From JBHIBR01 sp046759145 [NCBI: Nitrospinota bacterium] (GTDB taxonomy: Bacteria > UBA8248), in the NCBI GenBank assembly GCA_046759145.1, contig JBHIBR010000108.1:1-6420 (forward strand): a stretch of 6,420 nucleotides of DNA, given 5' to 3'. A program made the translations under genes and the position numbers. Shown here one piece after another: positions 16 to 6,255 of the stretch (within the stretch, counting starts at the first letter, position 1; each line of letters begins with the position of its first letter). Under the pieces are notes generated by a model. It was not told the DNA's origin and ran no database searches. It saw nothing but the letters and a program-made list of their open reading frames with translations.

Positions 16-1836
16 CTAGGCGACCGTGACCGACTTGGCGAGGGCGCGGGGTTTGTCCACCTCGCGGCCCAGGGCGACGCCCACGAAGTAGGCGAGGAGC
101 TGCCCGGCCAGGAGGTGGAGGAAGGGGGCGAGCAGTGGGGAGACACTGGGGAGGGGGATGTCCGCCTGGTAGAGAATGTGGTCCTCCTCCGAGTCGTCGA
201 ACCGAAGGCCCAGCAGCCAGCCTCCCCGCGCCCGGACCTCCTCCACGCTGCTCAGTGTGAGTTCATAGAGGGTGCGCTGGGAGCGGGGGGGTACGAGCAC
301 CACCGTCCGCACCCTCTCGTCGATCATGGCGATGGTGCCGTGCTTGAGGAAGCCCGCCGACATCCCTTCGGCGTGGTGGTAGGTGACCTCCTTCATCTTC
401 AAGGCGCACTCCAGGGCGGCGGGGTAGTAGATGCCCCGGCCCAGGTAGAGCCAGTTGCTGACCCCGGCGTTTTCGGTCGCGAAGGTGTGGACCAGTCCGG
501 ACCGCTCGTTGAGCGCCCCCTGCAGGATGGCAGGGAGGTCCCCCAGGAGCCTCCGGTGGGAGTCCCGGGCGTCTGGAGGGAGGTGCCCCACCCGCACCCC
601 CACCTCCGAGGCCACGAGCAGAAGGAGCACCATCTGGCTCAGCGCCGCCTTGGTGCTCACCACACAGATCTCCGGCCCCGACCCCTGGAGGATGGGCAGG
701 TCCACCAGGCGCACCATGGAAGAGCCCATGACGTTCACGATGGCCGCCGTCCGGGCGCCCGCAGCCCGGGCCGTCCGCAGGGCGCTGAGCGTGTCGTAGG
801 TCTCCCCCGACTGGCTGATCGCCACCACCAGTGCCTCCGGCCCCGGGCGGGCGAGGTGGAGGAACTCGTCGGCGCTCACGGCGGGCACGAAACGCCCGGC
901 CAGCTCGCTGAAGAGGTACTGCCCCACCTGGCCCACGTAGTGGGTGGTCCCCACCCCCACCAGGAAGGTCTCCCGGCTCTCGGCAATCAGCGCCGCGAGG
1001 CGGTCGATCAGGTCGGATTCCACGTTCAGCGCGCTCGTCACCGTCTGGGGCTGCTCGTAGATCTCCTTGAGCATGTAGTGGGGGTAGCCCCCCCGCCGGC
1101 TCATCTCGGCGTCCCAGGCAATCTCGACCGCCTCCTTGGGGACGGGCTCCTGGGAGTCGATGTGGCGCACCATGAAGGCGTCTTTGGTGAGGACGGTGTA
1201 CTCGCCGTCCTCCATGATGACCGCCGAGCGGGTGAACTCGATGAAGGCGTTGAAGTCCGAGCCGAGGAAGTTGGTCTGGTTGCCCAGGCCGATGATGAGG
1301 GGGCTCTCCCGCTTGGCGCCGAACACCCGGTCGGGGGTGTGGCTGGAGATGAGGGCCAGGGCGAAAGTGCCTTCCAGTTCCCGGAGGGTGCGGACGAAAG
1401 CCTCCTCCACGTCAGCGGCCTCGGCGAAGTGGGCCGCCACCAGGTGTGCGACCACCTCGGTGTCTGTCTCCGAGGCAAAGCGGGCACCCCGGGCCTCGAG
1501 GCGCTCGCGCAGCTCCCTGTGGTTGGAGATGATGCCGTTGTGGACCACCGCGAAGGCGCCGCTGCTGTCCAGGTGGGGATGGGCGTTCTCGGGGCTCACC
1601 CGTCCGTGAGTGGCCCAACGCGTGTGGGCCACCCCCACCCGCCCCCGGACCCCGGCGAGGTGCTCCTTGGCGTTCACTTCGTCCACCGACCCCACGTTCT
1701 TGCGCACCTCGATGCGGCCGTTCCGCTGGACGGCCACGCCGCATGAGTCGTAGCCCCGGTACTCGAGGTTGCGGATGCAGCGGAAGAGCTGGGAGCCCAC
1801 GTTGCGGGCGCTCACGACGGCGGCGATACCGCACAT
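16..1836 (-). CDS. glmS: Glutamine--fructose-6-phosphate aminotransferase (isomerizing)
   Basis: Cytosolic enzyme making glucosamine-6-phosphate from fructose-6-phosphate and glutamine, the entry step to UDP-GlcNAc. It has 606 residues against 609 in E. coli, so it is full length. The N-terminal glutaminase domain (about 1-220) has the Cys2 nucleophile (MCGI), HTRWATHG at 71-78, HNG at 99-101 and SETDTE at 122-127. The first SIS domain carries SQSGETYDT at 341-349 and VSTKA at 393-397. The second carries ALKMKE with Lys480 and Glu483, and KHG with His499, equivalent by eye to E. coli K485, E488 and H504. The C-terminus ALAKSVTVA keeps the Schiff-base Lys601. Glutaminase, isomerase and sugar-binding residues are therefore all present. 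The motif normally ELKHG reads FLKHG here, and the SIS2 wording (HAEGMSAG) is less like the E. coli enzyme than expected. The ATG follows the upstream stop by one base, with GGAG at 1847-1844, suggesting translational coupling. Identification is secure. Confidence 0.97.
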   Translation of the reverse strand: MCGIAAVVSARNVGSQLFRCIRNLEYRGYDSCGVAVQRNGRIEVRKNVGSVDEVNAKEHLAGVRGRVGVAHTRWATHGRVSPENAHPHLDSSGAFAVVHNGIISNHRELRERLEARGARFASETDTEVVAHLVAAHFAEAADVEEAFVRTLRELEGTFALALISSHTPDRVFGAKRESPLIIGLGNQTNFLGSDFNAFIEFTRSAVIMEDGEYTVLTKDAFMVRHIDSQEPVPKEAVEIAWDAEMSRRGGYPHYMLKEIYEQPQTVTSALNVESDLIDRLAALIAESRETFLVGVGTTHYVGQVGQYLFSELAGRFVPAVSADEFLHLARPGPEALVVAISQSGETYDTLSALRTARAAGARTAAIVNVMGSSMVRLVDLPILQGSGPEICVVSTKAALSQMVLLLLVASEVGVRVGHLPPDARDSHRRLLGDLPAILQGALNERSGLVHTFATENAGVSNWLYLGRGIYYPAALECALKMKEVTYHHAEGMSAGFLKHGTIAMIDERVRTVVLVPPRSQRTLYELTLSSVEEVRARGGWLLGLRFDDSEEDHILYQADIPLPSVSPLLAPFLHLLAGQLLAYFVGVALGREVDKPRALAKSVTVA

Positions 1837-1837
1837 C

Positions 1838-3043
1838 TCAGCGCTCCGGCCGGGGGTGGGAGTAGCTGTGGGGGATGACCCCGGCGGCGGGGATGACCGT
1901 GCCAGCCATGAGCGTGTTGCTCGCTCCCACCCGCGCCCCGTCGCCGATGAAGGCCCCGAGCTTGGGGAGCCCGGTGCCGATCTCCTGCCCGTTCACCCGG
2001 CAGAGGATGGGGGAGCGGTCCAGGTAGTTGTTGATGGTCATGGTGCCCGAGCCCACCTCCACGTCCTCCCCCACCACGCTGTCGCCCACGAAGGAGAGGC
2101 GCCCCACCTTGGCTCGGCCGAAGAGCACACAGTTCTTCAGCTCCACCCCGTAGCCCACCGTGGTCTCCGGCCCCACGCAGGTGTAGGGACGGATGAGGAC
2201 GTTGTTGCCCACGAAGGAGCGCCGCCCGATGAAGCAGGGGCCGACCATCACCGTCCCCGACTCCACCACCACGTCCTCCTCCACCCGGACGGGCCCCCGG
2301 AGCTGGACGTCCCCCCGGAGCTGGACGCTGCGGTCGAGCTCGGCGCTCTGCCAGCTGTCCATCACCATCCGGTTCGCCCGGAGGATGTCCCAGGGGTAGC
2401 AGGCGTCCACCCAGCCCCCCTCCCAGATGGAGGCGTAGAGCCCTTCCTCGGCGATGAGACGGGAGAGGCCCTGCTCCATCTCCCCCTCCTCCAGATAGTC
2501 CAGGATCCGGTAGGGGAGGACGAAGGCCCCCGCCAGCACGTAGTTGCCCCGCTCGCCCATCCCCGGTTTCTCAACGAGGCGGTCGATGCGCATCTCGGGG
2601 CCCAGGTAGACGTTCCCGTACAGGCCCGTCTCGGGCGTGTGGCACACCGCCGCCGCCGCCCCCCCCATCGAAGCGAACGTCTGGAGGGTCTGGAGGTAGA
2701 TGTTGTTGTCGGTGACCACGTCGGCGTAGGCGAGGAGGAAGTACTCCCCCTCCTCGAAGCGCTCGCGGGCGAGGCCGACGGCCTGGGCGATGCTGCGGGG
2801 GCTCTCCTGGATGAGATAGTCGATGGCCATCCCCCAGCGGGCGCCCCGCTCGAAGTAGGCGGTGATGCGCTCCCGGCGGTGGCCCACCACCATGATCACA
2901 TCCCGCACCCCCGCCGCCCGCAGTTGCAGGAGGGTGTTCTCCAGGAGGTAGCGCCCCCCGACCGAGATCATGGCCTTGGGGCGGGTGGTGGTGAAGGGGA
3001 CGAGATTTGCGCCGACGCCAGCCGCCAGGATGAGCGCTTTCAA
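1838..3043 (-). CDS. GlmU-like sugar-1-phosphate nucleotidyltransferase with left-handed beta-helix domain
   Basis: A 401-residue two-domain protein. Residues 1-230 form a Rossmann-like nucleotidyltransferase: LILAAGVGANL at 4-14, RPK at 21-23 with Lys23, a QES..S.AQAVG segment at 79-90, YAD at 106-108 (metal Asp108), VEKP at 157-160 and WVDACYPWDIL at 211-221 (second metal Asp213). Residues about 235-392 are hexapeptide repeats of a left-handed beta-helix acyltransferase, ending with a KLGAFIGDGARVG segment. The layout and wording resemble the archaeal-type bifunctional GlcN-1-P acetyltransferase/UDP-GlcNAc pyrophosphorylase more than E. coli GlmU (456 aa). Pairing with glmS supports UDP-GlcNAc synthesis. 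Two oddities: the usual Arg of GxGxR is Asn13, and the catalytic His expected before L.(Y/F).GD is Arg315, with the following Tyr as Phe318. Substrate and activity at both sites are therefore uncertain. The start is TTG at 3043; no ATG or GTG exists between it and the in-frame TAA at 3109-3107, and GGGGGGA precedes it by 7 bases. Confidence 0.88.
   Translation of the reverse strand: MKALILAAGVGANLVPFTTTRPKAMISVGGRYLLENTLLQLRAAGVRDVIMVVGHRRERITAYFERGARWGMAIDYLIQESPRSIAQAVGLARERFEEGEYFLLAYADVVTDNNIYLQTLQTFASMGGAAAAVCHTPETGLYGNVYLGPEMRIDRLVEKPGMGERGNYVLAGAFVLPYRILDYLEEGEMEQGLSRLIAEEGLYASIWEGGWVDACYPWDILRANRMVMDSWQSAELDRSVQLRGDVQLRGPVRVEEDVVVESGTVMVGPCFIGRRSFVGNNVLIRPYTCVGPETTVGYGVELKNCVLFGRAKVGRLSFVGDSVVGEDVEVGSGTMTINNYLDRSPILCRVNGQEIGTGLPKLGAFIGDGARVGASNTLMAGTVIPAAGVIPHSYSHPRPER
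1844..1847 (-). promoter_or_regulatory. Shine-Dalgarno of glmS inside the upstream gene
   Basis: GGAG lies seven bases before the glmS ATG, within the last codons of the GlmU-like gene. The junction is TGA-G-ATG, an arrangement typical of translational re-initiation. It also leaves no room for a separate glmS leader or glmS ribozyme. Confidence 0.6.
2294..2327 (-). repeat. 18-bp tandem duplication encoding two beta-helix hexapeptides
   Basis: A 16-base string (plus strand 2294-2309) recurs exactly at 2312-2327, giving a period of 18 bases. It encodes VQLRGD followed by VQLRGP at residues about 240-251 of the GlmU-like protein, the first hexapeptides of the beta-helix. Near-perfect nucleotide identity suggests a recent in-frame duplication of one hexapeptide unit. 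Confidence 0.7.
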
Positions 3044-3050
3044 CGAGATT

Positions 3051-3057
3051 TCCCCCC
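3051..3057 (-). promoter_or_regulatory. Shine-Dalgarno for the TTG start of the GlmU-like gene
   Basis: GGGGGGA on the minus strand lies seven bases before the TTG at 3043. It supports TTG as the real start. The in-frame codons upstream contain no ATG or GTG before a TAA, and the nucleotidyltransferase motif begins directly after this TTG. Confidence 0.55.
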
Positions 3058-3105
3058 AATAGAGTTTTGCGCCCCTACGTCCGCAGCAAGCCCGGGCGGT
3101 GGCTG

Positions 3106-3134
3106 ATTATAGCATAGCCTTATAGCATTGTCCC
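3106..3134 (-). promoter_or_regulatory. Sigma-70 type promoter with extended -10, driving the GlmU-like gene and glmS
   Basis: On the minus strand a perfect TATAAT (3111-3106) is preceded by TGC, giving an extended -10. A GGGACA hexamer (3134-3129), four of six matches to TTGACA, lies at the ideal 17-base spacing. The expected transcript start is about 3100-3098, leaving a leader of about 55 bases before the TTG start at 3043. This AT-rich patch stands out sharply in a very GC-rich window. It implies that the two amino-sugar genes can be transcribed independently of the thiolase and regulator genes upstream. Confidence 0.65.
3107..3128 (-). repeat. 9-bp direct repeat across the promoter spacer and -10
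   Basis: On the minus strand ATGCTATAA occurs at 3128-3120 and again at 3115-3107, separated by GGCT (period 13). The downstream copy forms the extended -10. The upstream copy falls in the spacer and offers a second TATAAG hexamer, but with no acceptable -35. The origin of the duplication is unknown; it could be a slippage product or a regulator half-site pair. Confidence 0.6.
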
Positions 3135-3268
3135 CCCAGCGAGAGGGCCATCTCCACCACCCGACACACCATGGGCCTTCCGCCCACCGGGTGGAGGACC
3201 TTCGGGAGGGGGGAGGCCATGCGGGCGCCCTTCCCCGCCGCGAGCACCACGGCCGCAAAAGAGGGCAC
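3107..3268 (-). pseudogene. glmU: Truncated 5' remnant of canonical glmU
   Basis: From a GTG at 3268 this frame gives 53 residues. About residues 5-46 read as the start of a bacterial Glm[14 protein letters not shown] with the catalytic Arg, [14 protein letters not shown] with the conserved Lys, then [10 protein letters not shown]. Homology stops there. Seven unrelated residues (QCYKAML) follow, then TAA at 3109-3107. A functional GlmU has about 450-460 residues, so nearly all of the uridylyltransferase domain and the whole acetyltransferase domain are missing. No continuation was seen in another frame before the next gene. It begins 21 bases after the regulator's stop, so it may once have been co-transcribed with it, but no good Shine-Dalgarno is evident. 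The break coincides with the -35 hexamer of the downstream promoter. An assembly deletion cannot be excluded from this sequence alone. Confidence 0.75.
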
Positions 3269-3279
3269 TACTGCGGCCG
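3250..3279 (-). repeat. Inverted repeat between the regulator and the glmU remnant
   Basis: Perfect 8-base arms (3250-3257 and 3272-3279, CGGCCGCA/TGCGGCCG) flank a 14-base loop. On the minus-strand RNA the loop contains the GTG start of the glmU remnant. There is no following U tract, so it is not a classic intrinsic terminator. It might sequester translation or mark an mRNA processing site, or be chance in GC-rich DNA. Confidence 0.4.
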
Positions 3280-3289
3280 CCGAAGCCCC

Positions 3290-4660
3290 TCAGCCCCTCC
3301 CCTTGGGGGCGAGGCCGAGCTGGACCACCTTGCGCCTGAGGGTATTGCGGTTGAGCCCCAGGAGGCGGGCGGCGCGAACCTGGTTGCCCCCGGTCTCCCG
3401 CAGCACCACCTGGAGCAACACCCGCTCTACGCTCTCGATGGTGACTTCGTAGAGGTCGCCCCTGCGGTGGGGACTCTGGCGGTGGATCACATCGGAGAGA
3501 CGCTCGCGGAGGATGGCCTCGAGGCTGCTCCGGCTCCCCTCCACCACGGCGGGGGGCCCCTCCAGGTGGCGCGCGTCCACCACTTCCCCTGAGGCCAAGG
3601 CGCAGGCGCGCGCCAGGACGCGGGTGAGCTCCTCCAGGTTCCCGGGCCAGGGTCGGGAGGAGAGCCAGCGAGCGGCACCGGGCGAGAGCCTCTTCTTCTC
3701 CCCTTTCATGGCCTCGCAGAGAACCTCCAGCACGCGGGAGGCGAGCGCCGGTATGTCCCGGCGGCGCTCCCGGAGAGGAGGGACCTCTACCCTCTCCGCC
3801 GGCAAGCTCCCCAGGGCGGGCACCAGATCCTTCCGGCGGCGGATCTGTCCCAGCTCGCCCCGGTAGCCGATGAGCACCCGGAAAGCGGGCGAGGGAGCCT
3901 CCCGCACGCGCTCGGCGATGCGCTCCTGGAGAGGGGGGGGAAGGAGGTTCATCTCATCCAGAAAGAGTGTCCCCCCCATCTCCATGAGTTCGGCCGGGCT
4001 CTCTCCCGGCGGGCCTCTTTCGAGGAGCTCACGGCGAACCACCGAGGGGGCCTGGCCCCGCCAGTCGAGATGGAAGAAGGGGCCCTCCTCCGCTGAACCG
4101 AGGGCGTGGAAGCCACGTGCCGCCTGGGCCCTCTCCGTGCCCGGCTCCCCCGCGAGGAGAAGATGCGCCGGGCGCCGGGCGGCCTCCCGAAGCCGGGCGC
4201 AGAAGCGCTGGCAGGCCTGGCTCTCACCCCAGAGGGGGGGCGCCGGCTGCGGGGTGGCCATCCGGCGCATCCACCGCAGTTCGCGCCCCAGTCGCCGCAC
4301 CTCCCGCGCCCGGAGGGCCACCTGGGCCACCCCCTCCGCATCCAGGGGCTCCAGGAGGTAGGCCCACGCCCCAGCCCCCACCGCCTGGAGGAGCGAGTGG
4401 CGCGCCCCAGCCGGCCCCACCACCACCAGCGGGGGGCGCTCCTCCATCGCCTCGAACAGGGGGCGTACCCGGCCCCAGGGGTGGGCCTCGTGGTCCAGGA
4501 GGATGAGTCCGCACTGACGGAGGGAGCCCGGAGCCAGGCTGGCCGGGTCCGAGACTCTCCGCAGCTCCAAGCCCCGAGCCGCCAGCTCCTCCCGGAGCCT
4601 CACCCTCTCCTTCGACTCGGGGCCGACCAAAAGGACGGACACTGCTCCCCTGCCCCCCAT
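3290..4660 (-). CDS. Degenerate NtrC-family (sigma-54 type) regulator with Fis-type HTH
   Basis: A 456-residue protein with NtrC order: receiver-like domain (about 8-120), AAA+ domain (about 145-370) and Fis-type helix-turn-helix (about 405-450). The receiver keeps a possible Asp56 but has VGPES where the acidic pair belongs, and Glu104 in place of the conserved Lys. In AAA+, the Walker A reads GEPGTERA at 171-178, so the P-loop Lys is Arg. Walker B GGTLFLDE at 229-236 is intact, but the GAFTGA sigma-54 contact loop is absent. PPLRER at 294-299 and WPGN at 338-341 remain, while the sensor II Arg is Glu (NLEEL). The C-terminus, GGNQVRAARLLGLNRNTL, is a strong Fis HTH. It probably binds DNA but neither hydrolyses ATP nor activates sigma-54. 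It lies 27 bases after the DUF35 gene. The start is uncertain: the ATG at 4660 has GGAGG directly abutting it, and a GTG at 4642 would give a more typical MSVLLVG start. Its target is unknown. Confidence 0.85.
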   Translation of the reverse strand: MGGRGAVSVLLVGPESKERVRLREELAARGLELRRVSDPASLAPGSLRQCGLILLDHEAHPWGRVRPLFEAMEERPPLVVVGPAGARHSLLQAVGAGAWAYLLEPLDAEGVAQVALRAREVRRLGRELRWMRRMATPQPAPPLWGESQACQRFCARLREAARRPAHLLLAGEPGTERAQAARGFHALGSAEEGPFFHLDWRGQAPSVVRRELLERGPPGESPAELMEMGGTLFLDEMNLLPPPLQERIAERVREAPSPAFRVLIGYRGELGQIRRRKDLVPALGSLPAERVEVPPLRERRRDIPALASRVLEVLCEAMKGEKKRLSPGAARWLSSRPWPGNLEELTRVLARACALASGEVVDARHLEGPPAVVEGSRSSLEAILRERLSDVIHRQSPHRRGDLYEVTIESVERVLLQVVLRETGGNQVRAARLLGLNRNTLRRKVVQLGLAPKGRG

Positions 4661-5079: not shown

Positions 5080-6239
5080 CAACGAGGCGGGCCCAGGATG
5101 TGAACGACGCAGGTGGCCCCCGACCCTCCCAAGTTCTGGGCCAGACCCACCTCCGCCCCCCCGACCTGGCGCTCGCCCGCCTCGCCCCTGAGCTGCACCA
5201 CCAGCTCGTGCACCTGGGCGAGCCCCGTCGCCCCCACCGGGTGCCCCTTGGCCTTGAGGCCGCCGCTGGTGTTGACCGGGAGCCTCCCTTCCCGCGAAGT
5301 CCACCCCTCCAGGGCCGCCCGGAAGCCGGCACCTTTGGGGAAGAACCCCAGGTCTTCCACCGCGAGGATCTCGGCGATGGTGAAGCAGTCGTGCACTTCG
5401 GCGAGGTCCACGTCCGAGGGGCTCAGGCCCGCGGCGTCGAACGCGCGGCGGCCCGCCTCCACGGTGGCGTCGAGGCGCGTGATCTCCGCCTTCTCCTCCA
5501 GGGCGAGGGCGTCGGAGGCCTGGGAGGAGGCCAGCACCTCGACCGCCCCGTCTCGGTAAGCGCGGGCGCGCTCCCAGGGGCAGAGCACGCAGGCCGCCGC
5601 CCCATCGCTGATGAGCGAGCAGTCGTAGACCCCCAGGGGCTCGGCCACGGGACGGCCGCCCAGGGCCTGCTCCAGGGTGAGGGGCTTGCGGAGGTGGGCG
5701 TTGGGGTTCAGGAGGCCGTTCGCCTGGTTCTTCACCGCCACCGCCGCCAGCGCTTCCCGGGGGGCGTCGAACTGGTGCAGATAGCGGCGGGCGATGAGGG
5801 CGAAGAGGGCGGGGAAGGTGGCCCCCGCGTTCACCTCCACCTCCCAGTCGCCGGCGCAGGAGAGGATGTGGGTGGCCTGCCGGGTGTCCACCGAGGTCAT
5901 CTTCTCAGCCCCGGCCACCAGCACCAAGTCGTGGGCCCCCGACGCCACGGCCAGCACCCCCTGCCGCAGCGCCAGCCCGCCGGAGGCGCAAGCCCCCTCC
6001 ACCCGCGTACAGGGCACCGGGCGCAGGCCCAGGGCGCGGGCGGCATAAGGGGCGAGGTGGCTCTGGCCCGTGAAGGACTCGGCCGCGAAATTGCCGAGGT
6101 AGAACGCCTCCACCTCGGCCCGATCCACCCCCCCATCGGCGAGGGCGGCCTCGCAGGCCTGAGCCACCAGGGCCGAGAGCGACTCCGAACGCACACCGAA
6201 TCGCGTGAGCCCCACGCCCAGGATGGCGACGCGCCGCAC
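5079..6239 (-). CDS. Thiolase family protein (SCP2/archaeal acetyl-CoA acetyltransferase type)
   Basis: Numbered from the GTG at 6239, a 386-residue thiolase-fold enzyme, the usual length for this subfamily. It begins RRVAILGVGLTRFG, has the nucleophile Cys84 in VEGACASGGLAL, HDCF at 283-286 (the His typical of SCP2-type thiolases) and NTSGGLKAKGHPVGATG at 323-339 with His333. It should cleave or form a beta-ketoacyl-CoA (or a comparable acyl-CoA) with free CoA. The DUF35 partner immediately downstream matches the pairing in archaeal acetoacetyl-CoA thiolases and BbsAB-like systems. A fatty-acid or aromatic-acid breakdown role, or an acetoacetyl-CoA role, all fit; no HMG-CoA synthase is seen inside the window. 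The GTG at 6239 is preferred because GGAGGTGA precedes it by eight bases. An in-frame GTG four codons earlier (6251) overlaps that Shine-Dalgarno and would add only four residues. All catalytic motifs look intact. Confidence 0.93.
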   Translation of the reverse strand: MRRVAILGVGLTRFGVRSESLSALVAQACEAALADGGVDRAEVEAFYLGNFAAESFTGQSHLAPYAARALGLRPVPCTRVEGACASGGLALRQGVLAVASGAHDLVLVAGAEKMTSVDTRQATHILSCAGDWEVEVNAGATFPALFALIARRYLHQFDAPREALAAVAVKNQANGLLNPNAHLRKPLTLEQALGGRPVAEPLGVYDCSLISDGAAACVLCPWERARAYRDGAVEVLASSQASDALALEEKAEITRLDATVEAGRRAFDAAGLSPSDVDLAEVHDCFTIAEILAVEDLGFFPKGAGFRAALEGWTSREGRLPVNTSGGLKAKGHPVGATGLAQVHELVVQLRGEAGERQVGGAEVGLAQNLGGSGATCVVHILGPPR

Positions 6240-6247
6240 CTTCGAGC

Positions 6248-6255
6248 TCACCTCC
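6248..6255 (-). promoter_or_regulatory. Shine-Dalgarno deciding the thiolase start
   Basis: GGAGGTGA, an eight-base match to the anti-Shine-Dalgarno complement, lies eight bases before the GTG at 6239. It includes the alternative GTG at 6251, which therefore has no properly spaced site of its own. Confidence 0.7.

Follow-up and report, generated by a model that had tools for sequence, protein, structure and literature searches.

The 53-codon open reading frame (ORF) that follows the NtrC-like regulator gene is, by homology, the genuine N-terminus of a canonical GlmU, and its glmU homology breaks off exactly at the beginning of a promoter-like site that precedes a unit of a GlmU-like gene and glmS. 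We give about an even chance to the reading that a rearrangement cut a canonical glmU and left this stub as its 5' end, that the GlmU-like protein is a native relative of older date that has diverged, and that UDP-GlcNAc comes from another source elsewhere in the genome. In the window, which is the whole stretch of 6,420 nucleotides that was analyzed, the order on the minus strand is thiolase, OB-fold protein, NtrC-like regulator, stub, GlmU-like gene, and glmS:

6251-5079, minus strand: thiolase
5332-4688, minus strand: open frame, start uncertain, for a protein with a ChsH2-type OB-fold domain
3290-4660, minus strand: NtrC-like regulator (Pfam Sigma54_activat, E = 3.2e-8; HTH_8, E = 2.6e-13)
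3107-3268, minus strand: glmU remnant ORF of 53 codons, of which about codons 1 to 46 (3268-3131) are canonical glmU and 7 are read-through codons
3106-3134, minus strand: sigma-70-like promoter with an extended -10 (GGGACA, 17 nt, TATAAT), overlapping the end of the glmU remnant; a consensus match only
1838-3043, minus strand: GlmU-like protein of 401 amino acids, with a nucleotidyltransferase domain and a left-handed beta-helix of the archaeal GlmU type; N13, R315, and F318
16-1836, minus strand: glmS, 606 amino acids, apparently intact (TIGR01135, 611.8 bits against a cut-off of 418.05)

The stub begins with GTG and ends with TAA (3268-3107). Its residues 5 to 45 match positions 2 to 42 of the 452-position glmU model TIGR01173 (E = 7.9e-14, 51.3 bits), while IspD, MobA, and other NTP-transferase models match it more weakly; within Pfam, it matches the general NTP_transf_3 model (E = 1.1e-8). 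GlmU chains in the PDB match residues 3 to 47 without gaps (best E = 4.8e-12), and all 17 chains listed at an E value of 0.01 are GlmU or its uridyltransferase part. When canonical GlmU proteins are searched against the window by tblastn, those of B. subtilis (E = 3.9e-11) and Aeromonas (E = 2.1e-11) both match at the stub, where the alignments end at GlmU residues 44 and 46, respectively. The remaining matches below an E value of 0.01 lie in the C-terminal half of the GlmU-like gene (E = 1.6e-12 and 6.2e-7), which also gives a weak full-length match to canonical GlmU (E = 0.002). The earlier note had read a canonical GlmU N-terminus in 3107-3268 and had staked this on a significant alignment to GlmU proteins, which the TIGR01173, PDB, and tblastn matches supply.

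A permissive search of 3040-3145 in any frame for the residues of E. coli and B. subtilis GlmU that lie past the break yielded nothing better than an E value of 0.2, and no second canonical glmU sequence was found within the window. Because homology stops at the break and 3040-3145 holds no further GlmU, about 46 glmU codons remain, and the last seven codons of the ORF (QCYKAML) represent read-through into the promoter-like site rather than GlmU. The stub of 53 codons described earlier therefore stands as an ORF, but its glmU homology covers only about 46 of these codons. A continuation of glmU in another frame is rejected on the tblastn results together with the permissive search. The GC content by codon position of the 46 matched codons (0.76/0.54/0.89) is as in the flanking genes.

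Like canonical bifunctional GlmU (TIGR01173; E. coli, B. subtilis), the 46 codons carry the nucleotide loop (L-A-A-G-x-G-T/S-R, here AAGKGARM) and the P-K motif; the Arg and Lys are kept, and the Thr of G-x-G-T-R is replaced by Ala. Unlike canonical GlmU, the stub is missing about 90 percent of the protein; its 51.3 bits compare with a TIGR01173 cut-off of 366.85, and both the uridyltransferase and the acetyltransferase domains are incomplete.

Broken gene starts are ordinary in general. In B. subtilis, however, GlmU is regarded as an essential protein (PMC13046274, in excerpt), and thus a genome with a remnant only would need another route to UDP-GlcNAc. We also asked how often such stubs occur in genomes of the phylum of a Flavonifractor locus (Bacillota; see below), which may not be the phylum of the window. 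Matches to the stub at an E value of 1e-4 are present in 112 of the 119 genomes sampled from this one phylum; the shortest open frame among the 119 matches is 235 amino acids, and none lies in a shorter frame. A GlmU start of 53 codons is therefore no usual form in that phylum.

The promoter-like site at the break (3134-3106) matches the consensus at 10 of 12 positions, with a 17-nt spacer and a TG ahead of the -10 hexamer. It is the one such site found in 2900-3400, compared with a mean of 0.0 (standard deviation, 0.2) in 50 shuffles. Its -35 hexamer covers the last of the glmU codons in part, and TATAAT includes the stop codon of the stub. A promoter in place of the missing part of glmU, as proposed previously, is thus borne out as a consensus match. 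Could the ORF instead encode a small protein with a function of its own, or act as a leader through whose translation the promoter or the genes downstream are controlled? The retained loop Arg, the coding-like GC content by codon position, and the location of the ORF ahead of the promoter-like site are compatible with such a role, which we nevertheless regard as extremely improbable: a 46-residue piece of a fold would probably not be stable, the end of the ORF is the promoter-like site read as codons, the segment 3100-3038 folds no better than its shuffles (z = 1.04; 173 of 200 shuffles do as well or better), and the window has no Rfam match at gathering level. On the last two results, an Rfam element or a folded leader at the junction was rejected. 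A sigma-54 promoter at the junction was also rejected, as the sole site with two or fewer mismatches lies at 4107-4122, with 1.8 expected by chance.

The stub begins 21 bases after the regulator stop codon, a spacing as for the second gene of an operon. In the reading that we prefer, the ancestral order would have had glmU directly behind the regulator at this distance, and a deletion or an insertion would have joined glmU codon 46 to the promoter of the neighboring GlmU-like/glmS unit. What is left would be a dead glmU remnant that has not decayed, which suggests that the break is probably recent. The GlmU-like protein would be native and of older date, related to archaeal GlmU but diverged from it, and coupled to glmS. 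Elsewhere, the genome would contain either an intact glmU or a different path to UDP-GlcNAc. We infer that the organism itself, rather than the assembly, carries the break, that the break is recent, and that UDP-GlcNAc has a further source.

Repeats in 2950-3300 are short or imperfect. The 8-base word TCCCCCCA occurs at both 3051-3058 and 3131-3138; it was not compared with chance and by itself proves no mechanism. The junction is also spanned by an imperfect inverted pair of 21 nt (81 percent; 2977-2997 with 3148-3168), with the same limits on what it can say about chance or mechanism. It could be taken as a trace of an insertion, in which a block of promoter, GlmU-like gene, and glmS landed in glmU and left the 3' part of that gene beyond glmS, to the left of position 1; the window stops 15 bases past the glmS stop codon, leaving room on that side. 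We consider this very unlikely, given that the repeats listed in 2950-3300 are all short or imperfect and that the codon usage of the block looks native, although the window is too short to reach its other end.

By alignment, the GlmU-like protein is related over its full length to archaeal GlmU, the sugar-1-phosphate nucleotidylyltransferase-acetyltransferase represented by TIGR03992 and S. tokodaii PDB entry 2ggo, with which it has the two-domain layout in common. It scores 288.4 bits against TIGR03992, a near miss of the curated cut-off (292.1) over positions 1 to 385 of 393, and its residues 1 to 387 align with 2ggo (E = 1.3e-52). It differs from archaeal GlmU in that the catalytic Arg, His, and Tyr are replaced. 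At the Arg of the nucleotide loop (G-x-G-T/S-R), the GlmU-like protein has N13, and it has S84 in place of a Gly; the Arg and the Gly are each present in 27 of 27 compared proteins, which are chosen loci and not a fair sample (nine haloarchaeal proteins of the TIGR03992 type, mutually related and from among the matches listed, two Haloferax proteins linked to glmS, 14 from the Flavonifractor phylum, and two canonical GlmU proteins). L042, L043, and the second L032 match duplicate the genes of L032 and L038, each of which entered the count a single time, and loci with a C-terminal match only (L007 to L011 and L013) were left out of the 27. In the acetyltransferase domain, R315 and F318 replace the His and Tyr (H363 and Y366 in E. 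coli GlmU), which are found in 13 of 13 GlmU-type comparators (the nine haloarchaeal proteins and those of S. tokodaii, E. coli, B. subtilis, and Aeromonas). In S. aureus GlmU, E348 and H362 are described as key catalytic residues of the acetyltransferase site (PMC11947611, in excerpt).

Other positions are intact. K23, D108, K159, D213, E301, K303, and N338 are retained and are invariant in a nine-row alignment; they correspond to the Lys, the two Asp residues, and the EKP Lys of the nucleotidyltransferase and to the Glu, Lys, and Asn of the beta-helix. Since most other catalytic positions are kept, some GlmU-like activity is possible. With both catalytic signatures broken, however, the protein is unlikely to supply UDP-GlcNAc through the usual chemistry. 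Predicting the structure of the GlmU-like protein from its sequence alone gave a mean pLDDT of 39.2, and no conclusion was drawn from the model.

The loop Arg is not universal among related enzymes. According to the excerpted text of PMC4643126, the R18A change at this position in E. coli GlmU lowers activity about 6000-fold, while the corresponding mutation in the UDP-glucose pyrophosphorylase of H. pylori causes a loss of only 86 percent, and the Leishmania UDP-glucose pyrophosphorylase lacks the residue. The same excerpts describe its loss in E. coli GalF, which is weakly active, and in the modulatory subunit from potato. The GlmU-like protein has the pattern of such GalF-like or modulatory paralogues, with the loop Arg lost and the other sites kept, and with S84 for Gly as a further change. 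In this it resembles enterobacterial GalF and the modulatory large subunit of plant ADP-glucose pyrophosphorylase, nucleotidyltransferase paralogues that lost most of their activity along with the loop Arg (PMC4643126, in excerpt). Unlike these relatives of glucose-1-phosphate enzymes, it is of the GlmU type, adjoins glmS, and has a changed acetyltransferase site as well.

Relatives of the beta-helix domain also occur on their own. Among six beta-helix-only proteins from relatives of the Flavonifractor genome (taken from eight retained loci, with the residues of L008 and L011 read from tblastn), five have Ser and Phe at the His and Tyr positions and one has His and Tyr. A His-less branch of the domain thus exists, and the loss of the His need not mean a dead protein. 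The loci L007 (1399-2142), L013 (1378-2136), and L009 each encode a GlmU-like beta-helix alone, with Ser and Phe replacing the acetyltransferase His and Tyr. In L007, a gene of the uridine kinase family (PF00485, E = 1.5e-6) lies two genes upstream, and in L013 the gene directly upstream reads like that gene, by reading alone. L010 carries a related protein with His and Tyr behind a putative GlmM-like gene, also by reading alone.

The glmS start lies one base past the stop codon of the GlmU-like gene. Its product is identical to E. coli GlmS at 10 of 11 checked positions and has Thr for Ser at the eleventh. The earlier note had proposed that the GlmU-like protein now makes UDP-GlcNAc, so that canonical glmU became dispensable and was mostly deleted. 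The full-length match to archaeal GlmU, the one-base spacing to glmS, the promoter-like site in place, and the retention of most other active-site positions speak for such a replacement. Canonical GlmU is also missing from some bacteria (PMC7725333, in excerpt), so loss of glmU is possible in principle, and NCBIfam includes an alternative bacterial GlmU model, TIGR03991. However, the replacement of the catalytic Arg, His, and Tyr (N13, R315, and F318), along with S84 for Gly, makes a straightforward takeover doubtful, and nothing in the codon usage points to a recent arrival. We therefore hold replacement to be unlikely: the part of the proposal that survives is a glmU start cut at a promoter-like site ahead of GlmU-like/glmS, whereas the takeover by the GlmU-like protein is not supported.

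Synonymous codon usage of the GlmU-like gene does not differ from that of glmS (318 of 500 shuffles as large) or of the thiolase gene (117 of 500), the latter computed on the trimmed stretch 5105-6251. The gene therefore does not appear newly imported, its description as a new gene is not supported, and there is no sign in synonymous codon usage of a recent import of the GlmU-like/glmS pair. The regulator differs somewhat from the GlmU-like gene (19 of 500) and from glmS (2 of 500), while neither glmS (176 of 500) nor the regulator (126 of 500) is distinguished from the thiolase gene. The stub, too short for a codon test, gives mixed values (97, 11, 251, and 11 of 500 versus glmS, the GlmU-like gene, the regulator, and the thiolase gene, respectively). 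Taken gene by gene, these comparisons single out the regulator as the one that deviates. When genes are pooled, glmS plus the GlmU-like gene differ from the regulator plus thiolase (7 of 500). We take the pattern to reflect a single genome whose regulator gene is atypical, though it would also fit a join of related strains.

Such a join is part of the main rival explanation, in which the junction is an artifact of assembly or strain mixture and the true order is regulator, full glmU, GlmU-like gene, and glmS, or in which its halves derive from separate places or strains, with the contig passing over the missing part. The pooled difference in codon usage between the sides of the junction fits this explanation, as do the undecayed remnant, the TCCCCCCA word on both sides, and the fact that pattern scans of genome and viral contigs did not find the GlmU-like gene of the window, as might be the case for a metagenome contig. 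However, an 8-base word is far too short alone to mislead an assembler, the GlmU-like gene and glmS are not separated across the junction from the thiolase gene (117 and 176 of 500), and the junction coincides with a well-formed promoter-like site, which may, however, belong natively to the GlmU-like gene. An artifact is thus somewhat unlikely in our estimation, and we rank a true deletion with another UDP-GlcNAc source elsewhere above it as the most likely explanation.

The regulator is itself unusual. In an alignment with residues 1 to 426 of E. coli NtrC, it has lost the Walker A Lys (GEPGTERA versus GESGTGKE) and the GAFTGA loop, while its Fis-type DNA-binding end still matches HTH_8. The loss of this Lys and this motif makes it improbable that the protein is a working sigma-54 activator.

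Searches for relatives of the locus returned little. A scan of genome contigs with the GlmU-like protein gave one distant locus, from Flavonifractor, and scans of viral contigs with the GlmU-like protein, GlmS, and the regulator found no relative. The corresponding viral-contig scan with the stub gave one locus, which carries a different nucleotidyltransferase: on a 335-kb viral contig (L045, 5992-7089), a 365-amino-acid protein has a start like that of GlmU-type nucleotidyltransferases, with 47 percent identity over 32 stub residues. Across 398 genomes of the Flavonifractor phylum, there is no full-length match to the GlmU-like protein at an E value of 1e-30; 25 of them match it in part, and all 27 matches end by residue 349 of 401. 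A tblastn search of plasmids with this protein gave only proteins of less than 60 percent identity, the best being haloarchaeal, and a phage search found no place covering 80 percent of it.

If the GlmU-like protein does the job of GlmU despite the missing residues, it would represent a new active-site solution. If it is inactive, it would be a GlmU-type pseudoenzyme adjoining glmS and a possible control element for the supply of cell wall precursors; our literature searches listed no paper on such an arrangement. One model for control is GlmR of B. subtilis, a UDP-GlcNAc-binding protein with uridyltransferase activity that stimulates GlmS (PMC13046274, in excerpt). By analogy, the GlmU-like protein may be a catalytically broken archaeal-type GlmU that has become a sensor or modulator of the cotranscribed GlmS, binding UDP-GlcNAc or a precursor and setting GlmS activity while UDP-GlcNAc is made elsewhere, and the glmU truncation may have put the pair under its own promoter. 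We offer this tentatively and consider it unlikely. GMPPA, a noncatalytic nucleotidyltransferase paralogue, binds the product and regulates the pathway enzyme GMPPB (PMC11228364, in excerpt); unlike in this animal GDP-mannose system, the partner of the GlmU-like protein is a guess.

Partly similar arrangements are found on plasmids. On Paracoccus seriniphilus plasmid p599725, a shortened canonical glmU lies directly ahead of glmS, with a sigma-54-type regulator gene nearby. In contrast to the window, this glmU keeps about 330 residues (E. coli numbering), there is no intervening GlmU-like gene, and the regulator is downstream of glmS. The Paracoccus glmU (L028, 3872-5029) lacks most of the acetyltransferase part and has no gene in the collection table, which omits pseudogenes. 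The Haloferax gibbonsii and H. mediterranei plasmids pHG2 and pHME505 have a sugar nucleotidyltransferase gene with a one-base overlap with glmS. This nucleotidyltransferase is 31 percent identical to the GlmU-like protein but keeps the Arg, and its beta-helix is without the GlmU acetyltransferase motif. Besides the glmS-overlapping genes (L038, 2214-3383; L039, 4242-5411), the Haloferax plasmids carry an archaeal glmU at another place.
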